Shown here: positions 91 to 52,096 of the stretch, one piece after another
Numbering within the stretch: the stretch's first letter is position 1
Layout: each line of letters opens with the position of its first letter
Assembly: GCA_023954355.1 (NCBI GenBank)
Contig: JAMLID010000007.1
Location: 1-64,000 of the forward strand
Direction of reading: 5' to 3'
Source: Oligoflexia bacterium
Lineage (GTDB): Bacteria > Bdellovibrionota > UBA1018 > CAIPTA01
DNA: 64,000 bases
The notes under the pieces: model-generated
Told to the model about the DNA's origin: nothing
The model's input: the letters and a program-made list of their open reading frames with translations, nothing else
The model's database searches: none
Position numbers and translations under genes: made by a program

Positions 91-166
91 TGGAGCCGAT
101 GACGGGACTCGAACCTGCGACCTGCGCTTTACGAAAGCGCTGCTCTACCAACTGAGCTACATCGGC
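91..166 (-). tRNA. tRNA-Thr (anticodon CGT)
   Basis: The reverse complement folds as a tRNA. It has a 7-bp acceptor stem (GCCGATG / CATCGGC), a D arm GCTC..GAGC, an anticodon stem GCGCT / AGCGC around the loop TTCGTAA, and a T loop TTCGAGT. The discriminator base is T and the 3' CCA is encoded (91-93 on the plus strand). Anticodon CGT reads threonine ACG codons. The acceptor end matches threonine tRNAs of enteric bacteria as I remember them. The T stem has one G-T pair and one A-C mismatch, which is mildly unusual. Confidence 0.95.
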
Positions 167-312: not shown

Positions 313-1464
313 ATGAAACGATTCGCTTTTTTAATACTAGGAATAGCCATCTTAGCATGGCCCATTGGAATGAGAAATATTCTCATCCCTACTGTATATG
401 CCGATACAGGCACTAGCTCTGTTACCGTAACAGGCACGCAAACTACAACAGGCACTGAGACATTTACCAGTAATCCAAGTACAGAAACTGTGAATGATAA
501 CCAAAATACCACGCAACAAGACACTGAAGATTTAAACGACTCCGGCTCTCAGCAATCAACCATGCTTGGAATGATGGCAATCGCTGCAGGGGCTGCAATG
601 GTAGCTGCCGGTATGGCTTGTGCTCCAGCTCCTTGTGTAGGATTAATCATGGCCGGCATGGCATTAATTGCTGCTGGTATGATGGGACTGATGGCTGCTG
701 GTATGATGGGTAACAACGCCAATACAGCAGGCTATCGAAGTGGTAATATGAGTGGAATCACTGGCAGCACAGCTACAAATACCGCAACGGGAACGGGAAC
801 AAACCCTGGAGAAAGTGGCGGGATTAAAATTGATCCTAACCTATTAAGAACGGGTCAATCAGGAACAGTTTTCGATGATTTAGAAAGCAAAACCGGAATC
901 AATAGAGACGACTTTGTGAACGCCATTGGTAACGGTGCTGATCCAGCCTCTATGCTCGCGAATGCTCCCAAATTAAAGGGTCTTGGCGTTTCTGAAGATG
1001 CTCTCAAAGGGTACTTATCAGATGCGCAGAGCTCTTCTCTACCCGGTGCAGATGATATTATGAGCAAACTAGGTTTAACACCTGAAGAGCTAGAAGCTAT
1101 GGCAAAACAAAATGCTGCCTTTAATGCAACAGGAGAAGACAACTCTTATGGAGCAGGCGGAGGCTCAAGAAATCCGGCTTCAAATAAGTCTGCTTCTTCT
1201 AATCCCGATATAAATTCGTTCTTAAATGCAAATAAAGATCTTGGAGCTTCTGTAGATAAGCTAGGTAAAGATGGGATGGGACTTAGCCCAGAAGTTCAGG
1301 CTGCATTAGATAGAAATGGAATCACTGGTCAAACTATTTTCCAGATGGTTCATACACAATACAAAAAGAAAACCCCCATGATGTTTGGTGTTCAACAAAA
1401 GAAAACCATCAGCACCTCTGAAAACCCATTTCTAAACCTAAGCGGTAATGATGTGAATTTATAG
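313..1464 (+). CDS. Secreted protein of unknown family with glycine/alanine/methionine-rich segment and shared C-terminal motif
   Basis: The 383-aa product starts with a long signal peptide (charged MKR, hydrophobic core, VYA-DTG cleavage near residue 31). A Thr/Ser-rich stretch follows, then a strongly hydrophobic Gly-Ala-Met segment at about residues 78-132 that could insert in or lie along a membrane. A block starting at D174 (DPNLL, then GINRDDFV) resembles one in the protein at 37681. Near the C terminus is IFQMVHTQYKKKTP (342-355), a motif shared by four proteins here. It is the first gene of a three-gene cassette, with 13 bases to the next. No known family was recognised. The start is set by GGAGGG seven bases upstream. 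Confidence 0.8.
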   Translation: MKRFAFLILGIAILAWPIGMRNILIPTVYADTGTSSVTVTGTQTTTGTETFTSNPSTETVNDNQNTTQQDTEDLNDSGSQQSTMLGMMAIAAGAAMVAAGMACAPAPCVGLIMAGMALIAAGMMGLMAAGMMGNNANTAGYRSGNMSGITGSTATNTATGTGTNPGESGGIKIDPNLLRTGQSGTVFDDLESKTGINRDDFVNAIGNGADPASMLANAPKLKGLGVSEDALKGYLSDAQSSSLPGADDIMSKLGLTPEELEAMAKQNAAFNATGEDNSYGAGGGSRNPASNKSASSNPDINSFLNANKDLGASVDKLGKDGMGLSPEVQAALDRNGITGQTIFQMVHTQYKKKTPMMFGVQQKKTISTSENPFLNLSGNDVNL

Positions 1465-1477
1465 AAAAGGGGCATCA

Positions 1478-2479
1478 ATGAAGGGGGGATACGAGTTATG
1501 CATATTCATTATAATTACTCTATTCGCTTGTCCTTTTGCCTTTTCAAAAACAAAAGCTAGTGGAGCGAGTCGTATGAACTCAGGGCTAAAAGAGTGCGTG
1601 GCATTAGCAGTAGACGGCAGAGAAAAAGGTCTGTGCTCTGGAGATAATCGTGAAACCGATGATTGCGTTGGTTTACGACTATCTATACAAAACTCACTCA
1701 AAACAACAGAATGTAAAATACATTCTCCGCCTATTTGCCACAGATATGGGCACAAGCAACACCACCAATCGAAATGGGTAGCTGTTAGCTCCGGACATTT
1801 AGCTATATTTGCAAACTGCGTAAGGGATGCTTATCCGCTTAATGACAGAGGTGACTTATCTATCGCTCTTGAAGATGATGCCTTCGTAGCTTTTTTACGC
1901 ACTGTAGATGATGGATCTACTACTTATGGAATGGCTCAAGGAACAATTTTACTAAATCTTCTAAAGGGTGAGAGACTCAGTTCAACATTAAAAAACTCTG
2001 ACATTGGAAAAAAATTAGATAAACGATTACTTCAAGAAATTATCGAATCCGCAGAAACACCTACACCAATCGATTTGAGTGAAGATATTGCTCAAACAGA
2101 AGAATCAATAAACCTCGCAATTGGTAATGATTTTCTAGTGAACAAATCAGTAGATGATAACAGTAAGGAAGCTCCACATCAAAGAAGCTTAGCTGCTCTC
2201 TCTAGCGGCTCGTATCAGTGGGTTTTACCTAAAACCAAAACTGCAACCACTAAAGAAGATGAAAGCAACAATAACAGATCTAATGTTCATATAAGGGTAA
2301 TTAAAAATAATTTATACTCACTTAACTTAGACCAAAGTCTATTTGATAGAGTCAGCTCGGCATATATACGATTATCGCCTGATCTTTTGTCTATGAATGA
2401 ATACATAAAGTTTATCCCTAAAAAACCACCTAAAGACGTAAAAGAGTTAATAGAGAGAGGAAGGCCTGCAAATCTATGA
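1478..2479 (+). CDS. Secreted cysteine-rich protein of unknown family, shared C-terminal motif
   Basis: The 333-aa product has an N-terminal signal peptide (hydrophobic residues about 7-22, cleavage near FAFSK). It is followed by a cysteine-rich region at about residues 38-115 with the order ECV..., LC, DCVGL, C, IC and ANC. The same order appears in the product of the next gene, so the two look paralogous. The C-terminal part carries LFDRVSSAYIRLSP (288-301), the family motif. An AAAAGGGG ribosome site precedes the ATG. The stop overlaps the next start in ATGA, which implies translational coupling. Disulphide bonding in the periplasm or outside the cell is likely but inferred. No known family was recognised. 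Confidence 0.8.
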   Translation: MKGGYELCIFIIITLFACPFAFSKTKASGASRMNSGLKECVALAVDGREKGLCSGDNRETDDCVGLRLSIQNSLKTTECKIHSPPICHRYGHKQHHQSKWVAVSSGHLAIFANCVRDAYPLNDRGDLSIALEDDAFVAFLRTVDDGSTTYGMAQGTILLNLLKGERLSSTLKNSDIGKKLDKRLLQEIIESAETPTPIDLSEDIAQTEESINLAIGNDFLVNKSVDDNSKEAPHQRSLAALSSGSYQWVLPKTKTATTKEDESNNNRSNVHIRVIKNNLYSLNLDQSLFDRVSSAYIRLSPDLLSMNEYIKFIPKKPPKDVKELIERGRPANL

Positions 2480-4095
2480 TGCGCTTCTTTTCTTTTAGTA
2501 TTTTTATTTTTTTAATAAGCTCGTTATCTGCTTACGCAGGCCTAACAGATGCACAACAAAAAATATGTGATACTTATAATGCAAAAAACTTAAAGCCGCC
2601 TGCATATTGCGTTAGCTCAAGCACAGGCACTCCAGGATCCACCGGTGGCGGTGTAACAATTGGTGGGCCTTCATCTGCTCCACCTCCGCCACCACCACCT
2701 CCTCCTCCATGTGTAGTTGCAGGAACACCATGCCCACCACCAGCTGGAGGCGGTGGCACTGTAGTCGGTGGCCCCGCTCCTGCGCCTTCTCCACCACCAG
2801 CTGCGGCTCCAACTGCTCCTAATGCAGCAGATACGTGGGTAGCAGAAAAAACAAACACAGGTTTATTCAATAATTCAGTTGAAGAACAAACAGCTTCAGG
2901 ACAAGTAATGAATGAGGACGGAGTTTTAGAAAATAAATTAATGATAGACCAAAGAGCCTCGTTCCAAGCAAATGCTAACTCTATGTATAATTGCGTCGAT
3001 ACATCGATCAGTGGTCGTACAGATACCGTATGCGCTAGTGATCCAACAAACCCTGAGTGCGTTGGACTAAACAGTGCTCTAAATAATTCTACAAATTGTG
3101 CCATGCTTGCTCCGGATGGAGTCACTTGCTTAGCTTATGGGGCCAATGGCTATACTGGAGAAGAGTGGCTTGCTTTCGGTACTCAGTACTTTGACGGTAT
3201 GCTAGGGTGTTTTTCAGCACACACAGAAAATGCTACAGTCTTGAACACAGACACAGGTGAAAATAAACTAGAAAACTTAACAGATATAGTTAGTGGTGGT
3301 TCAACTTCTGCAACCACTGCTGGTGTTTTGGGATTTAGCGCACCTGGAGGATCAAGCAGTGATATTTCAGCTAGCTCAAAAAATAAAGAACAGAGTTCAA
3401 AGAACACTTATAATCAAAAAAGCAAATCATCCTCCTATGGGTGGGAATATTTCGCTGAAAAAATAAACGATGGTGCCTCATATATTGGTTATAATAATGG
3501 AGAAATTTTTAAACGTGCGGAAGAAAAAGAAAGTTTCTTGACTGTCTTTACTGATTCACCATTTTACCAAAACAAACTTAATAAAAAGCAGCAAGCTAGT
3601 AGCGAAGAAGCCATCAATTATCCTCAAGACCCAATAAACTCGGCTAAAGAAAAATATGCTGCCAAAAAAGAAGAACGAGAATTAAATGGAGAAACAGTAG
3701 CCGAAGCATCTAGCGAAAATAAAGATGCTACAGCTAATGATTTAATGGACGCAATAAATAGCCAAATTGGTCATGAAGAGACACAACAGCCAATTGCTGG
3801 GGGCTCTGCAACATACAGTCTCAATAGTAGCGATAACGAAAATAAACAGACTACAAACCTACCCTATTATAATAAAGAAGTTGTTGCTGAATTAGCCGCC
3901 CGAAGAAGTCTTGCGTCTGTAAATAATCCATCTCAGTCAGAGCAATTATCTGCATTAAGAACAGAAGACCTAAGCATTTTCGAACGTGTATCACTTACGT
4001 ATAGAAAAGTTAGCCCGCATATGAAAAGTTTAGAGTCTCAAACAGGAAAAGATTTGAGACGACTCGACACACCTACGTTCTTCAAAAATCTATAA
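2476..4095 (+). CDS. Secreted proline-rich, cysteine-rich protein, shared C-terminal motif
   Basis: The 539-aa product has a clear signal peptide (hydrophobic residues 4-20, AYA-GLT). A short Cys-containing segment follows, then a low-complexity Pro/Gly linker at about residues 50-115 that includes a run of ten prolines. A cysteine-rich domain (about 170-250: NCV, VC, ECVGL, NC, TC, GC) matches that of the preceding gene. A long polar Ser/Asn/Glu-rich region leads to IFERVSLTYRKVSP (501-514), the motif common to four proteins. The proline run suggests a surface-exposed or wall-spanning linker, which is inference. It is the last gene of the cassette. The function is unknown. Confidence 0.8.
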   Translation: MMRFFSFSIFIFLISSLSAYAGLTDAQQKICDTYNAKNLKPPAYCVSSSTGTPGSTGGGVTIGGPSSAPPPPPPPPPPCVVAGTPCPPPAGGGGTVVGGPAPAPSPPPAAAPTAPNAADTWVAEKTNTGLFNNSVEEQTASGQVMNEDGVLENKLMIDQRASFQANANSMYNCVDTSISGRTDTVCASDPTNPECVGLNSALNNSTNCAMLAPDGVTCLAYGANGYTGEEWLAFGTQYFDGMLGCFSAHTENATVLNTDTGENKLENLTDIVSGGSTSATTAGVLGFSAPGGSSSDISASSKNKEQSSKNTYNQKSKSSSYGWEYFAEKINDGASYIGYNNGEIFKRAEEKESFLTVFTDSPFYQNKLNKKQQASSEEAINYPQDPINSAKEKYAAKKEERELNGETVAEASSENKDATANDLMDAINSQIGHEETQQPIAGGSATYSLNSSDNENKQTTNLPYYNKEVVAELAARRSLASVNNPSQSEQLSALRTEDLSIFERVSLTYRKVSPHMKSLESQTGKDLRRLDTPTFFKNL

Positions 4096-4220: not shown

Positions 4221-7200
4221 TCAATCACTATCTGTTAGCGCACTTTCCGTAAATTCATCATCGTCAAGACCTTTATTAATTTGTAGATTCGACAACTCTA
4301 AAACGGTTCCTCTTTTGGTTTGTAAGTTTTCTACTTGCACTTTCTGAGCTCTCCACACGCCTTTATCAAATTGCTTATAGCCAGAAAAATTACTTACTTT
4401 CAAAGGCTTCATTTTTTTATCAAAGTACTCCATCTTACCCACTAAATTTTTTTCAGCATCAACCCAAATATGAATTTTTCCGTAAGAACTTTCACCGGTA
4501 GGAACACTTTCAATCACATGAAACTTTCGACCAGCCATCGTCTCTTCTTTTAACACAGTACTCTTATATTTTGCATCCGAGCTAGTGCCCATATCTTCAA
4601 AGCTTAACTCAGAATCCATAAAACTAGAGCTTCTCTTACTCGAAAGAATTCTTCTTGTCTGCTTACTTGAAGGTAAGTAAAGCCACTGATCACTTTCAGA
4701 CCCTTTGCTTACAGATAGTAAAGCTGTTCCTTTTAAATCTGCAGGAGAATTCATTCTAACTAAAACTTTTTGTTTATCGTCTGCACCTTTTCTTTTAATT
4801 TCAATCGCACGTTCTTTTTCTGTCCCATCTTTTTCAGTAATTAACATTTTCAAAGTAGCAATTTCATCATTGCTTGATACGTTTTTTTCTACTTTTTCTA
4901 AAATGGTTTTTGCGTCAGCTGATGGGCTCTTAGGAGCAGCAACAGCGCTAGCAGCGCTCACTGTATTTGGCACAAAGGTACCAATAGTAAATAATAAAGC
5001 TACACTTGCAGCGACAGCATTTTCTGACATAACTTTCTCCTTTGGTGCAATTTTCTTCTTATCTCTAAGCAAATTCGGCATAAATGCTAAGATCGTAGGA
5101 AGTAAAACTAAATCTCCTACTAGACTACCAAAAATTGCCACTAACATGTAGAGTCCAAACTGCTGGTTTAAAGAAAAATACGAAGCTAAAAAAACTAAAA
5201 AACCTGCTGACACAGATAAAGAAGAGTAAAAACATAAGTTACCCTCTTGATACCATGCTTTAATTGGATTCACTCTTCCGTGTAAAGAGCGCTCTTGCAA
5301 TAAGCGCAAACGACCTAGCAGATAAACGGTATTATCAAACGAGATGCCTAGAGCGATTGAAAAGATAAGCGCTATCCCAGGTTTAATACTCGTACCAAAC
5401 GCCCCTAAAGTGCCCAATAAAAATACTACAGGAACTAAGTTTGGAATCACTGCTAAAAGAGTCCACTTTAGAGAGCGAAACACTACCAGCAATAAAACAG
5501 AAATCAACAAAAGCGCCTGCCAAAAACCTGATATCAATTCGCTTGAAAGCTCATTATTTAATTGATGAGCTGTGGTTGCCATACCTGCAGGGTAAACTTT
5601 CCAATCCGAAAACTCTGACTGAAGTTCTTTTGTTAAGTTATTAACCTCCTCTTGCATTAAGTCTGCTGGAATATCATGAAGTCTCAAACTCAATCGCGTG
5701 GCTCTCCCATCGGCAGTGACAAATTTTTTATACGGATCTTCTTCAGAAAACGTATATAAAAATCCGACCTCTGCAGCCTCTTGTCTAGTAGAGGCAAGAC
5801 CCCTTCCCTGAACTTTCGCTGCTGCTAGTTGAAAATCAGCCAATGTGATTATCGAACCGATATTCGGGTTTGAACGCCATTTATTAGCTACTTTTTCTAA
5901 TTGAGCAATAGAAGCAGGATCATTCCAAGCATTGACCTCATCTTTTTCAACGATTAAATCTAAAGGAATCATTCCGCCTAGTTTTTCATCTAAATATTCT
6001 GTTGTTTGTCGAGCTGAATGCGACTTTGGCAAATCGTCAAATAGTTTAGATCCCCAGTTTAAATCAAAAGAAAACAGAGAAAGGCTTACAATCACAACAG
6101 CACATGCACCCAATACCCAATGTTTATTCTTTTGTATATAGAGTGCCCATCTTGCTTGTCCGTGCAACCAGTCTCTAGCTTCGGGTACCGGCAATAATAT
6201 TAGTAAAGGCAATAGAGCCACTATCACTACCAACCAGCACACAAAAATAGAAAAACCAATCGATAGTCCATATTGGCGAATTAAAGGAACTTCAGTAAAT
6301 GCTATCGCAAAAAAGCCTATCGTAGTCGTAAGCGATGTTAAAAAATTTGGTAACATCAAGCCTGCATAAGATCGAAAGAGAACTCGTATAGGATTGGGAT
6401 TTTCTTGCTTCTCTTTAGCTGTTTTCCAATCACTAGCATAGCGAAGCATTGTATGCGCAGACATTGATAAAACTGTCAGAGCAACTAAAATCGGCAATGT
6501 ACTAGAAAGTACAGTGAATGAAACATCTACCCAAACCATCCAAGCTAATGAAAGAATATTTGCCAAAACAATAAGAAATAAAGTGATAAACACAGACGAA
6601 ATAGTTCTAAAAAACAAAAGAAGCGTGACAAGACTTGCTAATAGCGAAAGTAAAATAAAATTCACTAACTCTTTTCCTAAAAGTTTTCCCATTTCACCTT
6701 GAATCGCTGGTATTCCACCCAGCTCAGCATTTGCTCCAACGAGCTCTTTTTTGGCTAAATCCAGTGCTTTATTTTGAATCCCTTGCGACTTCTCCATTAA
6801 GATCCCTGGAACTTGACCAATAGCTAAAACTGTCGTGCGCGCGTCTTGAGAAATAATTTGTGGACTCAATATAGGGTCTTTTAAAAATCGCTCTTTCCAA
6901 AGCTCTTTAGGAGTTAGTTCCGTAATCTTGCCAACCGTTAGCCCCTCACTAGAAGAAGATGCACCTTCTATTGTTGCCACACTGTAGACGTATTCCACTC
7001 CCTCCCAGCGAGCGATTTCATCGCTAACAGCCCTTAACTGCGCCACCCGATTCTCTTCAAGCCAACTTCCTTCTGTTGCAGGTAAAGTTAAAACCACGAA
7101 AAATGGCTCAAAACTCGAAAGTAGGAATCTATCCTTATTTTGATCATCTTTTAGCAATAGGGGGTGTGACTGCGGTAAAAACTGTTTCATGGAGTATTCC

Positions 7201-7370
7201 ATGCGAAGTTTGTGAAGAGAAAAAGCAGACAGTGCGCCTAGGGCGGCGATCAAAAGAACGCTAAAAAGGGCAAATCTTTTCGCATATTTTAAAAAAAAGT
7301 TAATATTATTAAATACTTGTATTAGTTTCATAGGCGCTTCCGTCGGATAACCATTTCTATTTTCATCCAC
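4221..7370 (-). CDS. RND (MMPL-type) exporter fused to a LolA-like lipoprotein-sorting domain
   Basis: Residues 1 to about 770 form an RND superfamily permease of the MMPL / COG1033 kind. A first membrane helix lies at about 36-55, with a large periplasmic loop, a block of helices at about 235-400, a second loop, and a second helix block at about 620-765. Residues 781-1049 are a LolA-like outer-membrane lipoprotein-sorting domain (QWLYLPSSKQTRRI and SFEDMG motifs) preceded by a signal-peptide-like stretch ending TVSA-ASA. These two parts are usually separate genes. At residue 781 there is an ATG with a perfect AAGGAG six bases upstream, so the second part may also be made alone. The substrate is probably a lipid or lipoprotein (inferred). 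The gene is divergent from 7491. Confidence 0.85.
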   Translation of the reverse strand: MDENRNGYPTEAPMKLIQVFNNINFFLKYAKRFALFSVLLIAALGALSAFSLHKLRMEYSMKQFLPQSHPLLLKDDQNKDRFLLSSFEPFFVVLTLPATEGSWLEENRVAQLRAVSDEIARWEGVEYVYSVATIEGASSSSEGLTVGKITELTPKELWKERFLKDPILSPQIISQDARTTVLAIGQVPGILMEKSQGIQNKALDLAKKELVGANAELGGIPAIQGEMGKLLGKELVNFILLSLLASLVTLLLFFRTISSVFITLFLIVLANILSLAWMVWVDVSFTVLSSTLPILVALTVLSMSAHTMLRYASDWKTAKEKQENPNPIRVLFRSYAGLMLPNFLTSLTTTIGFFAIAFTEVPLIRQYGLSIGFSIFVCWLVVIVALLPLLILLPVPEARDWLHGQARWALYIQKNKHWVLGACAVVIVSLSLFSFDLNWGSKLFDDLPKSHSARQTTEYLDEKLGGMIPLDLIVEKDEVNAWNDPASIAQLEKVANKWRSNPNIGSIITLADFQLAAAKVQGRGLASTRQEAAEVGFLYTFSEEDPYKKFVTADGRATRLSLRLHDIPADLMQEEVNNLTKELQSEFSDWKVYPAGMATTAHQLNNELSSELISGFWQALLLISVLLLVVFRSLKWTLLAVIPNLVPVVFLLGTLGAFGTSIKPGIALIFSIALGISFDNTVYLLGRLRLLQERSLHGRVNPIKAWYQEGNLCFYSSLSVSAGFLVFLASYFSLNQQFGLYMLVAIFGSLVGDLVLLPTILAFMPNLLRDKKKIAPKEKVMSENAVAASVALLFTIGTFVPNTVSAASAVAAPKSPSADAKTILEKVEKNVSSNDEIATLKMLITEKDGTEKERAIEIKRKGADDKQKVLVRMNSPADLKGTALLSVSKGSESDQWLYLPSSKQTRRILSSKRSSSFMDSELSFEDMGTSSDAKYKSTVLKEETMAGRKFHVIESVPTGESSYGKIHIWVDAEKNLVGKMEYFDKKMKPLKVSNFSGYKQFDKGVWRAQKVQVENLQTKRGTVLELSNLQINKGLDDDEFTESALTDSD
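5028..5042 (-). promoter_or_regulatory. Internal ribosome site and start codon inside the RND-LolA fusion
   Basis: On the minus strand AAGGAG (5042-5037) lies six bases before an in-frame ATG (5030-5028). That ATG opens a 269-residue segment starting MSENAV with its own hydrophobic, signal-like N terminus. This is what an ordinary separate LolA-like gene would have. It suggests either two products from one frame or recent loss of the stop codon of the RND gene. Confidence 0.6.
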
Positions 7371-35579: not shown

Positions 35580-37439
35580 TTAAAAGGAAAAAACAGTTGA
35601 AATCAACGCTTCTCTTTCAAATGAACTCTGCTTTTGTAAATTAGTTTGCCCTTTCAGACGCAAACGCAAACTACTCATCTCTGTTACCATATAAGAAGAG
35701 TGAAGACTAAGGTCTAGCCATTCACCATTCTCTGGTGCGATCCATCCTTTGTGTAATCTTGATTCTAGAACCAGCTTCCACGGTTGCAGTCCATAGACAA
35801 AACCAAAATCTAAAAAATTTGAAAGCCGATATCCTCTACTCCACTGCCTAGATTCTTCAGCCTGTGCTCCGAAAAAAATCCACGAAACCATTTTTTCAGA
35901 CACCTTAAACGAAGGTCCCCCAGCGGCTGATGCATGTATCCCCATACAACGAATTTTGCCACATTTCTCTGTTTGTATATTTTTATATGCCAATAACCCT
36001 CTCCACGAAAATGGCCGTGACACAAGTGACCAGGGCGTAAGCGATATAATCGAAAGGGCCTCTGCTGATTCTAGATAAAACGATTCTTTCATCCACCTAA
36101 AAGTAAAATTCGGAAATAAAAAGTGTGAAAATGGCAGATATCCTAAGTCCCCATCAACCAACTCATGATAGGCAAAGCGAATGTATAACTCACTTCCGTA
36201 TCTCGTGCCATTGAGCTCTCTAGCAAATGCCCCTAGCCCTAGCCCATAAGGGCCATGACCTTTATCAGGCTGACTAAGCTCATCGTAAATATCTTTTTCA
36301 ATCACCTTATCTTTTTTTGCTGCTAGTGCAATTAAAGACTGGCGGTATCTTTTTTCTTGATCGCTTGTCCACTTTTTTTCATCCTGTTTTTTTACGGATA
36401 AGAGATATAAGTTATAGGCTTGTAATACTTTAGTACTCACATTTTCATTCAAAGAATCTTCTTCTTTTAACCTATCAAAAGACTGATCTTCTTCTTTACT
36501 AAACCCAGAAGCGATAGACTTAATTCGTCTATGTAAAGATGGACGAAAGCGAATTTTGTGAACCGCCCCTTCTTGTTTTGCTACTTTTTTAATGGATTCT
36601 CCTGGAATCATATGCACAAAGTAACCACTAATATCCCAATCTAACTTTGCGACCTCAAGCAAAGTGAGCAATTGAAACGAACAATTCTCATCACCAAAAA
36701 AATAATTAAAATAGCTATTGGTTTCTACTTCCCAGACCGCATTAATAAGTCTTTGCAACTCATAGGAATTAAGATTTAATTCGTATTCCCATAGATCACG
36801 ACCTTCAAAATACCCATACTCTGCTACCTTCGTATAGTACGGCAAAAGAGAGAACTGTCCCTGATACCCACCTGTTAAGCCAAAATAAGCAAAGGCAAAG
36901 GGATTTTCATCATCAGAGACAACCGCTGCATAATTAATACTCCAGTCGAGTAACCCTGGATGTGATTCGTCTTCAGATTTTTTGTAAAATTTTAAAAAAC
37001 TATGACCAAACATGGAAGCAGGATTATTTGGATAAGCTGAAGCGAATACGAGCGCAACCCCATCTGTTTGTGTCTTCTTTTGAAAGTCTTCAAAATGCTC
37101 GCATCTAGATACAGTATTAAACTTAAGAGACAAAACTCTTTCTAAAAATTCTTTTCTCGCCGGAAAAGCACAATGAATGGGTTGCTTTAATCTACCGTAC
37201 TCTCCCCCACCTCTCTCAAAAGCCGCAATAGATGCTTCTAACTCAGCTAAGCGATCTGTATCTCCATTAGGAGCAAGAAAAAAACCCTTACCGTCTAGGG
37301 CAGATCGATAACCACGAAAAAAATGCTGTTTATAGTACAGTAAGCGCGTCCACTCTTTTGATTCGGCAATAGTAGCTAAGTCTTTTTTCTCATAAGAAAA
37401 AGTTAGTGTAGAGGCTACAAGTAGAAACCAGGTGAGCAT
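35580..37439 (-). CDS. DUF4105-family envelope protein
   Basis: The 619-aa protein has a signal peptide from M at 37439 (MLTWFLLVASTLTFS). The DUF4105 core has LVFASAYPNNPASMFGHSFLKF, PFAFAYFGLTGGYQGQF, and NYFFGDENCSFQLL with a Cys. The C-terminal third reads as outer-membrane beta-strands ending in F. The conserved His and Cys recall NlpC-like or LRAT-like hydrolases, but no activity is established. It is probably anchored in or on the outer membrane. A TTG start at 37481 is possible but would precede the signal peptide with unlikely residues. Confidence 0.82.
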   Translation of the reverse strand: MLTWFLLVASTLTFSYEKKDLATIAESKEWTRLLYYKQHFFRGYRSALDGKGFFLAPNGDTDRLAELEASIAAFERGGGEYGRLKQPIHCAFPARKEFLERVLSLKFNTVSRCEHFEDFQKKTQTDGVALVFASAYPNNPASMFGHSFLKFYKKSEDESHPGLLDWSINYAAVVSDDENPFAFAYFGLTGGYQGQFSLLPYYTKVAEYGYFEGRDLWEYELNLNSYELQRLINAVWEVETNSYFNYFFGDENCSFQLLTLLEVAKLDWDISGYFVHMIPGESIKKVAKQEGAVHKIRFRPSLHRRIKSIASGFSKEEDQSFDRLKEEDSLNENVSTKVLQAYNLYLLSVKKQDEKKWTSDQEKRYRQSLIALAAKKDKVIEKDIYDELSQPDKGHGPYGLGLGAFARELNGTRYGSELYIRFAYHELVDGDLGYLPFSHFLFPNFTFRWMKESFYLESAEALSIISLTPWSLVSRPFSWRGLLAYKNIQTEKCGKIRCMGIHASAAGGPSFKVSEKMVSWIFFGAQAEESRQWSRGYRLSNFLDFGFVYGLQPWKLVLESRLHKGWIAPENGEWLDLSLHSSYMVTEMSSLRLRLKGQTNLQKQSSFEREALISTVFSF

Positions 37440-37646
37440 TTGCCCAAAACAATAGGAGAGCCCTGCAAAGAGAACAAGCAAAAAAACACCTTAACAAAAG
37501 CTAATTCATGAATATTATTAGGCTTTTTTTGACTCAACCTACAAAAGAAAAAACATTTTTAATATCAAGTAGTTAAGAACAAATACCCCATCCTTAAAGA
37601 AGCACATAAATTAGCTTTTCCGTATAAATTTCAGACTTTTTTTTAC

Positions 37647-37680: not shown

Positions 37681-38700
37681 ATGTTGTGGAAACCCCTAAT
37701 TCGCACAATTTGGCTTAGCGGACTACTGCTCACGAATATTACGTGGGCCTCACAGACTATTGACCAAAATACTGCTCAAAACCAAGCAGAACAATTAAAC
37801 CGAATTGCTTCAGATCGCAGCATGGAAAACTCTACTGTATTTGCGATGCAAGCATTAATGGATCTTTCTTCTGCTAATGTACCCTCTGCAGTAAAAAACG
37901 GAGTTAACGCCTACGGAAAATATAGAAACTCTCAAGGGCTAGATCGTATTGGAGATCAAACCTTTAATAATTCTATGAGTATGAGCTCAGCAGGTGGTGG
38001 GCAAGCTAAGAAAACAGAAACAACTTTTCGTCGCCTTGACCCATCTTTTTTACACAAAGGCGAAGCTGCCAAAGTAGCAGCTGAATTTGAAAAACGATCC
38101 GGAATGAAAAGAGAAACATTTCTTAAAGAAATGAGTGCGATTTCTGAAAATAAAATCAGTAAGAAAGATCCACAACTAGTAGATAAAGCACTATCAAAGT
38201 TTGAAACATTTGCGGCGAAAATACCTAATCAAGAATTTCGTTCGAATATAGAAAAAACGATCAATATGGTACCTCAAACCGTAAGAACAGGCGTAATAGC
38301 CAAAGCTGTTTCTCAGTTTTCTAATCTTTTTTCTGCAGTTAGCTCATCGTCTAATCCAAATTTAGCTGGTGGTGCCACGGGACCACTCACAGAATCTCCT
38401 GCACAAACAGATGCTGCAAATAGAACACCTAGCTCTAGTGAAGAGCAAAGCGCATTAAATGCGGCTAATGATACTTCTGGCGAGAGCAATATAAGTGGTG
38501 GCGATACGAATAATATACATGAAGAAAAAGAGCCCTCACTACGCTATGGAATCGGAGAAGATGTACCCGAAGCCGAAAAAGGCGCTCTCGGTAATGTAGT
38601 ACAGGCTGCTATCGACTCCCAGGAAGAGGGCATTACCATCTTTCAGCAAGTTAGTCGGAAAATCCGCAAATTAACCCCCGAACTAGCTGAAATTAAATAG
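37681..38700 (+). CDS. Secreted protein of unknown family, paralogue of the product at 313
   Basis: The 339-aa protein has a signal peptide (LIRTIWLSGLLLTNITWA-SQ). A block from D120 (DPSFLHKGEAAKV ... SGMKRETFL) aligns without gaps to residues 174-202 of the protein at 313, with 9 of 29 identical and many conservative changes. The extreme C terminus carries IFQQVSRKIRKLTP (320-333), the motif of the cassette at 313-4095, just six residues from the end. The middle is polar and helical. The function is unknown. The start codon has no ribosome site but lies just after a sigma-28-like -10 box. Confidence 0.78.
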   Translation: MLWKPLIRTIWLSGLLLTNITWASQTIDQNTAQNQAEQLNRIASDRSMENSTVFAMQALMDLSSANVPSAVKNGVNAYGKYRNSQGLDRIGDQTFNNSMSMSSAGGGQAKKTETTFRRLDPSFLHKGEAAKVAAEFEKRSGMKRETFLKEMSAISENKISKKDPQLVDKALSKFETFAAKIPNQEFRSNIEKTINMVPQTVRTGVIAKAVSQFSNLFSAVSSSSNPNLAGGATGPLTESPAQTDAANRTPSSSEEQSALNAANDTSGESNISGGDTNNIHEEKEPSLRYGIGEDVPEAEKGALGNVVQAAIDSQEEGITIFQQVSRKIRKLTPELAEIK

Positions 38701-50583: not shown

Positions 50584-51702
50584 CTACTTTCCCTTTCCTA
50601 AAAATTCTTTTATCGATTTCATAATGCCTTCTTTATTTTCAATTTTTGAAAGGGCTAATTTTTCGTTTCCATCTTTAAATTGCTCTTGTAAATCTTTTAA
50701 AAATTGCCCAGACCCGTATCGACTTTCTACTTGCCCGTAACAAAACATATTAATTCTTGGAAAAAGATAGTTTTCCAATAAATCAAAACAAACTTTCGTA
50801 TCTTCACCACTCCAATTATCTCCATCAGAAAAATGAAATGGGTAAATATTCCATTGATCTGGTGGATATTCGGTCTCAATCATTTTTTGGCAAAGCTTAT
50901 AGGCACTAGAAATTAAAGTACCTCCGCTCTCTCTTGTAGAATAAAAGGTTTTTTCATCTACTTCTTTTGCAATAGTATCGTGAATGATATAGCGAGTTTC
51001 AATTCCCTTGTATTGAGAGCGAAGCCAGGTATCAATCCAAAAACTTTCCGTACGAACTATTTCTTTTTGTTCATCACCCATAGAACCTGAAACGTCCATC
51101 ATATAAATAATTACAGCATTCGCATCAAACTCTTCGGTTGTCTTCCAAGAACGATAGCGCATATCTTTTCGAATTGGCACAATCACAGGATTTTCAGAAT
51201 CATATGTTCCTGTTGCAATTTGACGCTTTAAGGCCTCTCTAAAAGAACGGCGAAAGTTTCTTAATGAATTGGGGCCTTGATGAGCGATTCCTGTGTAGCG
51301 ATCTTTTTGTTTTTCTAAAATCTCTTTTCCCTTAGCTTCAATTTTAGGAAGCTCAAGTTCCTCAGCCAAAATCTCTGCTAACTCTTGCAATGTTAAATCA
51401 ACCTCTAATGCATGATCACCAGGTTGATTTCCCGCCTCACCTTGACCATCACCCTCTTGAGGCTGTCCATCAGAGCCCACCTCATCACCCACATCTCCAT
51501 CGCCCTGACCTACGCCCCCTTCGTTACTTCCAAATTTAAATCTTGGAATATCAATTTGTGGCATAGGAATAGAGACAGTGTCTTTTCCTTTTTTTACAAT
51601 CATATCTCCATTGGAAATATATTTTTTTAAATCCTGCTTAATCTTGCCCTTAATGATATTTTTGAATCGAGCATGATCTCGTTGGATATTATAAAGTGAC
51701 AT
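50584..51702 (-). CDS. yeaH: YeaH/YhbH-family (DUF444) protein with VWA-like fold
   Basis: The 372-aa protein has a basic N terminus ([21 protein letters not shown]), an acidic Gly/Asp/Gln-rich linker (about 75-105) and a von Willebrand A-like domain with the metal-site motif [14 protein letters not shown] and [10 protein letters not shown]. It partners PrkA and SpoVR. AGGGAG ten bases upstream supports the ATG. The start overlaps the end of a small secreted-protein gene by 14 bp, unlike the usual prkA-yeaH arrangement. Confidence 0.92.
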
Positions 51703-52096
51703 AGCGTCCAGACTCCCTAAGCGTTTTTCTTACGGATTGAAAAATAGATGACTCTGACATTTCTTCAGAACGTACACTCAAATACGTTCCATTTGATTCA
51801 TCATAGAAAAAAAAGTCGCATCCTCTTGGCAGATCTGCGTTCTTTTTGGACAAAATCCAACCTTCACAGTCAGCTGGCCCTTTAATTTCCGACAATTCTA
51901 ATAACAACCCACTGGGATTTCTTAAAAGAACAAGATGAGAGTCTTTGCTTTTTGCGAAATGCACTTCTCCTCTTGGACTCTCGTAGATTTTTTCAATTAC
52001 CTGAGGGGACTCTTCACCTGTTGGTAGCCCTCTATTGGACCAACCTTCAGATGCGAAAAACACCCCCACTACTAATAAAAAGAAAATGGACTTCAT
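51689..52096 (-). CDS. Secreted protein inserted between prkA and yeaH
   Basis: The 135-aa protein has a signal peptide ([20 protein letters not shown]). The mature part has two Cys (PADCEGWIL and PRGCDFFFY) that could form a loop; the rest is beta-rich. It starts one base after the prkA stop behind AGAGGGG and overlaps yeaH by 14 bp, so it is translated with them. Its neighbours act in the cytoplasm, yet this product is exported. I do not recognise a family, and I know of no such gene inside the prkA operon elsewhere. Confidence 0.78.

Follow-up and report, generated by a model that had tools for sequence, protein, structure and literature searches.

The closest described counterparts of the C-terminal motif analyzed here are the PEP-CTERM and GlyGly-CTERM sorting signals. 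As with the motif, a short homologous C-terminal region recurs there on a large variety of exported proteins within a single lineage, and these proteins likewise carry an N-terminal signal peptide. Type IX secretion (T9SS) offers another parallel, namely a C-terminal targeting region on diverse Sec-exported proteins; the C-terminal domains of T9SS cargo are beta-sandwiches of about 70-100 residues. The encapsulation peptides of encapsulin and microcompartment cargo are short amphipathic helices that follow a flexible linker and dock different cargo, although that cargo is cytosolic whereas the motif proteins undergo export, and shell proteins were not seen. Two further systems are relevant to the genes found beside the motif genes: the minor pilins at the tip of Tad/Kil systems (TadE/F/G, KilLMN), as a TadG-like gene is a recurrent neighbor of motif genes, and the chaperones of the Eag, DcrB and Mog1 types together with PsbP, which have the same fold as a conserved neighboring protein that we call NFIEF. 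Predation by Myxococcus and Bdellovibrio makes use of Tad/Kil-like systems, and it has been proposed that minor pilins of the TadG type are exchangeable tips (PMC12075869, PMC5430801).

Four C-terminal motifs in the window

The analyzed stretch of DNA (the window) comprises 64,000 nucleotides from an Oligoflexia bacterium. An earlier note, made from the sequence alone, had described four secreted proteins with a common C-terminal motif of identical spacing. All four sequences were recovered at the places given there, in open reading frames (ORFs) of the lengths listed in Table 1 (P1 to P4), and the spacing from the phenylalanine to the proline is indeed 12 residues in each of them. The genes for P1, P2 and P3 are consecutive on one strand, with the start of P3 overlapping the stop of P2 by four bases (ATGA). 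The distance from the phenylalanine of the motif to the C-terminus is 19-45 residues in the four proteins. Signal peptides are predicted for all four, as the note had it: the N-termini look like Sec signals by eye, and our heuristic caught every one except that of P4 (MLWKPLIRTIWLSGLLLTNITWAS).

Table 1. Positions of the motif proteins, their motifs and associated features (window positions, unless another locus is named)
Feature	Position	Strand	Description	Related sequences or support
P1	313..1464	+	383 aa; signal-peptide-like start, Gly/Ala-rich helical hairpin, linker, C-terminal motif	Orthologue in G001
P1 hairpin (residues 64-143)	502..741	+	Gly/Ala-rich hydrophobic helical hairpin	AlphaFold, pLDDT about 63-73; aligned with the f18 family
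P1 motif	1336..1377	+	IFQMVHTQYKKKTP	Isolated helix 342-353 in the model
P2	1478..2479	+	333 aa; signal-peptide-like start, Cys-containing domain common to P3, C-terminal motif	Orthologue in G001
P2 motif	2339..2380	+	LFDRVSSAYIRLSP	
P3	2476..4095	+	539 aa; signal-peptide-like start, Pro/Gly-rich segment, Cys-containing domain, C-terminal motif	
P3 motif	3976..4017	+	IFERVSLTYRKVSP	
P4	37681..38700	+	339 aa; signal-peptide-like start, C-terminal motif	Paralogue P5 at G000:C2:30102-31004 (own genome)
P4 motif	38638..38679	+	IFQQVSRKIRKLTP	
Barrel-like protein and NFIEF pair	L143:9150-11225 (G000:C56)		Near-universal in the phylum	Without a Pfam family

The strict pattern had been derived post hoc from its four sequences, and for this reason it was tested by leave-one-out scoring with the held-out protein excluded from the profile. 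When a profile of three motifs was applied to the fourth protein, the best-scoring 14-mer was exactly the motif in each of P1 to P4, with scores of 38.5-44.0 compared to 18.2 for the next best ORF of the window. None of 10,000 shuffles scored as well for any of the four proteins, which is the excess over shuffled sequences that the earlier reading presupposed. Elsewhere in the window, no further match to the strict pattern was found in six frames.

Several other genes of the window lie next to these proteins. A tRNA-Thr gene (cgt; 91-166, minus strand) is located immediately upstream of P1. An MMPL transporter fused to a LolA-like domain (4221-7370, minus strand) adjoins the P1-P3 operon both here and in the only genome from the same family (G001), where the orthologues of P1 and P2 retain the motif; MMPL genes are also present near motif genes in G351, G349 and G346. 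P4 is adjoined by a Lnb_N/DUF7840/DUF7843 protein (35580-37481, minus strand). The C-terminus of a 135-aa protein (51689-52096, minus strand) resembles the motif core and was missed by the profile; it is possibly a degenerate copy or a chance look-alike.

Distribution of the motif and diversity of its carriers

Whole-protein searches with P3 and P4 returned little beyond the nearest relative, and we therefore used a motif profile instead. With the four-row profile, two further motif genes were found on other contigs of the same genome (at 5e-4 and 0.12), both of them long ORFs in which the motif is C-terminal. A broader profile identified 16 distinct motif genes in this genome, rather than the four of the earlier note. 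Seven of them are consecutive on contig C56, with signal-like starts by eye throughout. Three tails of this genome have a pair of cysteines after the core, HQKCFKRGCV (L143:843-2459), HVRCLMRGCV (L235:12094-13818) and HKHCMQSGCV (L236:7663-8907), and perhaps constitute a subclass of the motif.

An eight-row profile, with rows from this genome and G001 only and with position not included in the query, was applied to 58 genomes of the class and provides the clean test of position. Its matches in long ORFs, including those from other genera, were nearly all located 18-45 residues from the C-terminus. Of the 369 Bdellovibrionota genomes searched with a 23-row profile, 208 had a motif match at E<=0.1, a threshold at which some single matches are due to chance; the claim rests on the dozens of matches below 1e-3 and on their position. 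Sixty loci, picked by motif score alone, were then fetched as an unbiased set. Among all fetched ORFs of at least 200 aa, 120 of 124 matches (>=4.5 bits) were within 70 aa of the C-terminus compared to 18 expected by length, a count that is partly circular because some of these genomes also contributed C-terminal members to the 23-row profile. Shuffled fetched ORFs gave matches in 3 of 1370 cases. High-scoring internal matches (L137, L238, L247, L248) and matches in short ORFs were set aside as chance. In f11 g89, probably Bdellovibrio, there are at most one or a few weak motif copies per genome.

The consensus for the phylum is [NS]-[IL]-F-[EQD]-[RMI]-[IV]-[SH]-x-R-Y-Q-K. It differs from the earlier consensus, whose terminal proline and strict K/R spacing did not prove general; the terminal proline and the preceding serine or threonine belong mainly to this lineage. 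Exported proteins that otherwise differ from one another, well in excess of a hundred in the phylum, bear the motif; the profile search of Bdellovibrionota proposed in the note gave a phylum-wide set of exported carriers. Signal-peptide-like starts were assigned by the heuristic to 83% of motif proteins against 45% of a background of neighboring ORFs from the same phylum, and most of the misses are evident by eye. The absence of a known family with this signature was confirmed: no family scored above cut-off in Pfam or NCBIfam for any motif protein scanned (18 proteins in the case of NCBIfam), and the motif was not found in the literature searched. Four candidates from these scans, New_glue, YfiO/BamD, NheB and HrpE, were far below cut-off and were dropped.

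The bodies of the motif proteins are diverse. With the tails removed, phmmer separated them into at least 13 clusters and many singletons, and HHalign comparison of 17 body groups gave mostly no match, with P2/P3 matching none. The body links that HHalign did find, some of them weak, connect groups C, K and I, groups D and J, group E with P6, and P1 both with P4/P5 and with the f18 family. The residues G, S, A, N and T are abundant in the motif proteins (median 43% vs 30%), which have a median of eight cysteines. An A/G-rich hydrophobic segment is found in 66% of them compared to 20% of the signal-peptide background; it is absent in P2, P3 and P4. In some subfamilies only, an 'NPF' helix is present upstream of the motif (15 of 113 proteins, shuffled mean 1.1).

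These links raise the possibility of a single ancient family of exported proteins of the envelope that has diverged fast, in which the motif would be the last recognizable sign of common descent, with a structural or internal role and without being a portable tag. We consider this less likely than not. The A/G-rich segment in two thirds of the motif proteins would fit such a family, as would the frequent tandem duplication (for 63 of 121 motif genes, an immediate neighbor on the same strand also has the motif). However, the P2/P3, P1, C and D groups have no convincing mutual similarity of their bodies, three of the four window proteins are devoid of the segment, and the motif is positioned outside the folded body in the low-confidence model of P1. 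Moreover, a motif that is kept while the body is lost would still imply a function in the motif itself. Of the single protein family described in the earlier note, the common C-terminal signature on exported proteins stands, whereas the bodies form several profile-distinct groups.

Structure of the tail

The AlphaFold model of P1, obtained with a 17-row alignment, is of low confidence (mean pLDDT 58). It consists of a disordered N-terminus, the long helical hairpin, a small helical bundle at residues ~175-240 (pLDDT up to 89), and a disordered linker followed by the motif as an isolated helix with a pLDDT of ~70. As modeled at this confidence, a linker and a helix of ~12 residues at the C-terminus are unlike the beta-sandwich of T9SS cargo. 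Across the motif proteins, the helical moment of the motif is 1.52 compared to 0.95 when the same residues are shuffled. The protein ends 12-55 residues from the phenylalanine of the motif, and the tail has a median net charge of +3, with basic residues after the core.

The C-terminal position, the exported carriers and the basic residues after the core would also be expected of a processed sorting signal with a membrane anchor, in the style of PEP-CTERM or GlyGly-CTERM. Such signals have a hydrophobic transmembrane stretch close to the C-terminus and a basic cluster after it, whereas the motif core is an amphipathic helix without such a stretch: when the final 60 aa of 113 motif proteins were scanned for a hydrophobic anchor in the form of a TM-like 15-mer, none of the proteins had one. 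In addition, no CTERM model matched any of the motif proteins scanned against NCBIfam, and we regard this explanation as highly improbable.

Neighboring genes and candidate partners of the tail

The common genes that the earlier note expected near the motif genes do recur, in the form of a TadG-like gene and of the gene pair for a barrel-like protein and NFIEF. The TadG-like gene, a type with a Tad/TadE domain (Pfam), was found in 6 of the 60 unbiased loci (families f16, f18 and f23) compared to 0.17 expected for a single-copy gene, although such proximity counts are correlated by descent within families. Two more TadG-like neighbors were observed in G262 (f14) and G346 (f23), and one Tad-domain gene is present in nine of ten genomes tested. 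G100 encodes a T2SSE-type ATPase (CpaF-like) close to a motif gene, and in f9 genomes such an ATPase is found in the vicinity of the NFIEF/barrel pair. In the genome of the window, P5 is directly adjoined by a gene of the prolipoprotein diacylglyceryl transferase family (LGT, PF01790; L144:9377-10081).

Adjacency of the TadG-like gene in four families (f14, f16, f18 and f23), the CpaF-like ATPase and the predatory role of Tad/Kil-like systems cited above are consistent with a specific form of the tag, in which the motif proteins would be subunits or effectors of a Tad-like (Kil-like) apparatus and the tail would dock on the TadG-like tip minor pilin or at the site of its assembly. We judge this form to be unlikely: the motif proteins have Sec-type starts and not prepilin leaders, they have no Pfam Tad or TadE match, inspection by eye around the TadG-like gene of the own genome showed no further tad genes, and tad genes are absent from most motif loci.

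After the seven motif genes on C56 come the gene for the barrel-like protein and then that for a 236-aa NFIEF protein, whose start is conserved (N[QN]FxEFxLP..W.C) and whose C-terminus carries a membrane anchor. NFIEF was identified in 337 of 369 genomes, usually preceded by the barrel gene. It adjoins motif genes in f1, f2, f9 and f23, and the NFIEF/barrel pair stands alone in most genomes of the class. No Pfam family was found for NFIEF. Its model (pLDDT 83) has a PsbP/Mog1/DcrB fold, and Foldseek matched it with a probability of 1.00 to PsbP, Mog1, DcrB, EagT6 and SciW at 7-15% sequence identity. The matches include the EagT6-Tse6 and SciW-Rhs1 complexes, in which Eag chaperones of type VI secretion systems are bound to effector helices. 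The modeled fold suggests that NFIEF may be a chaperone or receptor. It differs from the Eag, DcrB and Mog1 chaperones and from PsbP in being exported, in its C-terminal membrane anchor, and in having no Pfam family of such kind.

By analogy with the Eag chaperones, which hold the transmembrane helices of effectors, NFIEF might be anchored in the inner membrane and act in the periplasm as a chaperone or receptor to which the tail or the A/G-rich helices of the motif proteins are bound. The enrichment of A/G-rich segments in motif proteins and the adjacency to motif genes in four families are in agreement with such a role. Nevertheless, PsbP gives the best fold matches, Eag proteins are matched with low TM-scores, and folds of this type are common; furthermore, NFIEF is almost universal whereas motif matches are not, many genomes having NFIEF without a motif match found. 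This form of the tag also appears unlikely to us.

The explanation that fits best is a phylum-wide C-terminal docking or recruitment tag on exported envelope proteins, to which we give about an even chance. It would account for a conserved, amphipathic and basic C-terminal helix that follows a flexible linker and is found on exported proteins whose bodies differ. The explanation agrees with the sorting tag or docking site proposed in the earlier note, without its wording of one family and its consensus. The absence of both TadG and NFIEF from the vicinity of most motif loci counts against the tag. In the proposed mechanism, the envelope proteins would first be exported by Sec, and the flexible linker would then present the tail, a basic amphipathic helix ([NS][IL]F[EQD]x[IV][SH]xRYQ), whose I/L-F-V/I-Y face would be held by a common envelope partner. 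Different bodies would thereby be recruited to one assembly, which may be surface or Tad-pilus related, with NFIEF or the TadG-like protein as candidate partners.

A specific link between the tag and the TadG/NFIEF set, drawn from gene order, is put forward tentatively. We are rather doubtful about a fuller version, in which the tail would be a docking code to a previously undescribed envelope apparatus. This would include a barrel in the outer membrane, a TadG-like tip pilin and, as receptor in the inner membrane, a protein with the PsbP/Mog1 fold, and might be used in surface contact or predation. If the tail is a docking tag, a single profile groups a large unannotated share of the exported proteins in a phylum known for predators, and points to a shared machinery that would include NFIEF, the outer-membrane barrel and the TadG-like protein. 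If the tail is instead no more than the final remnant of a single divergent family, the motif still marks a major exported family that has been missed by current databases.
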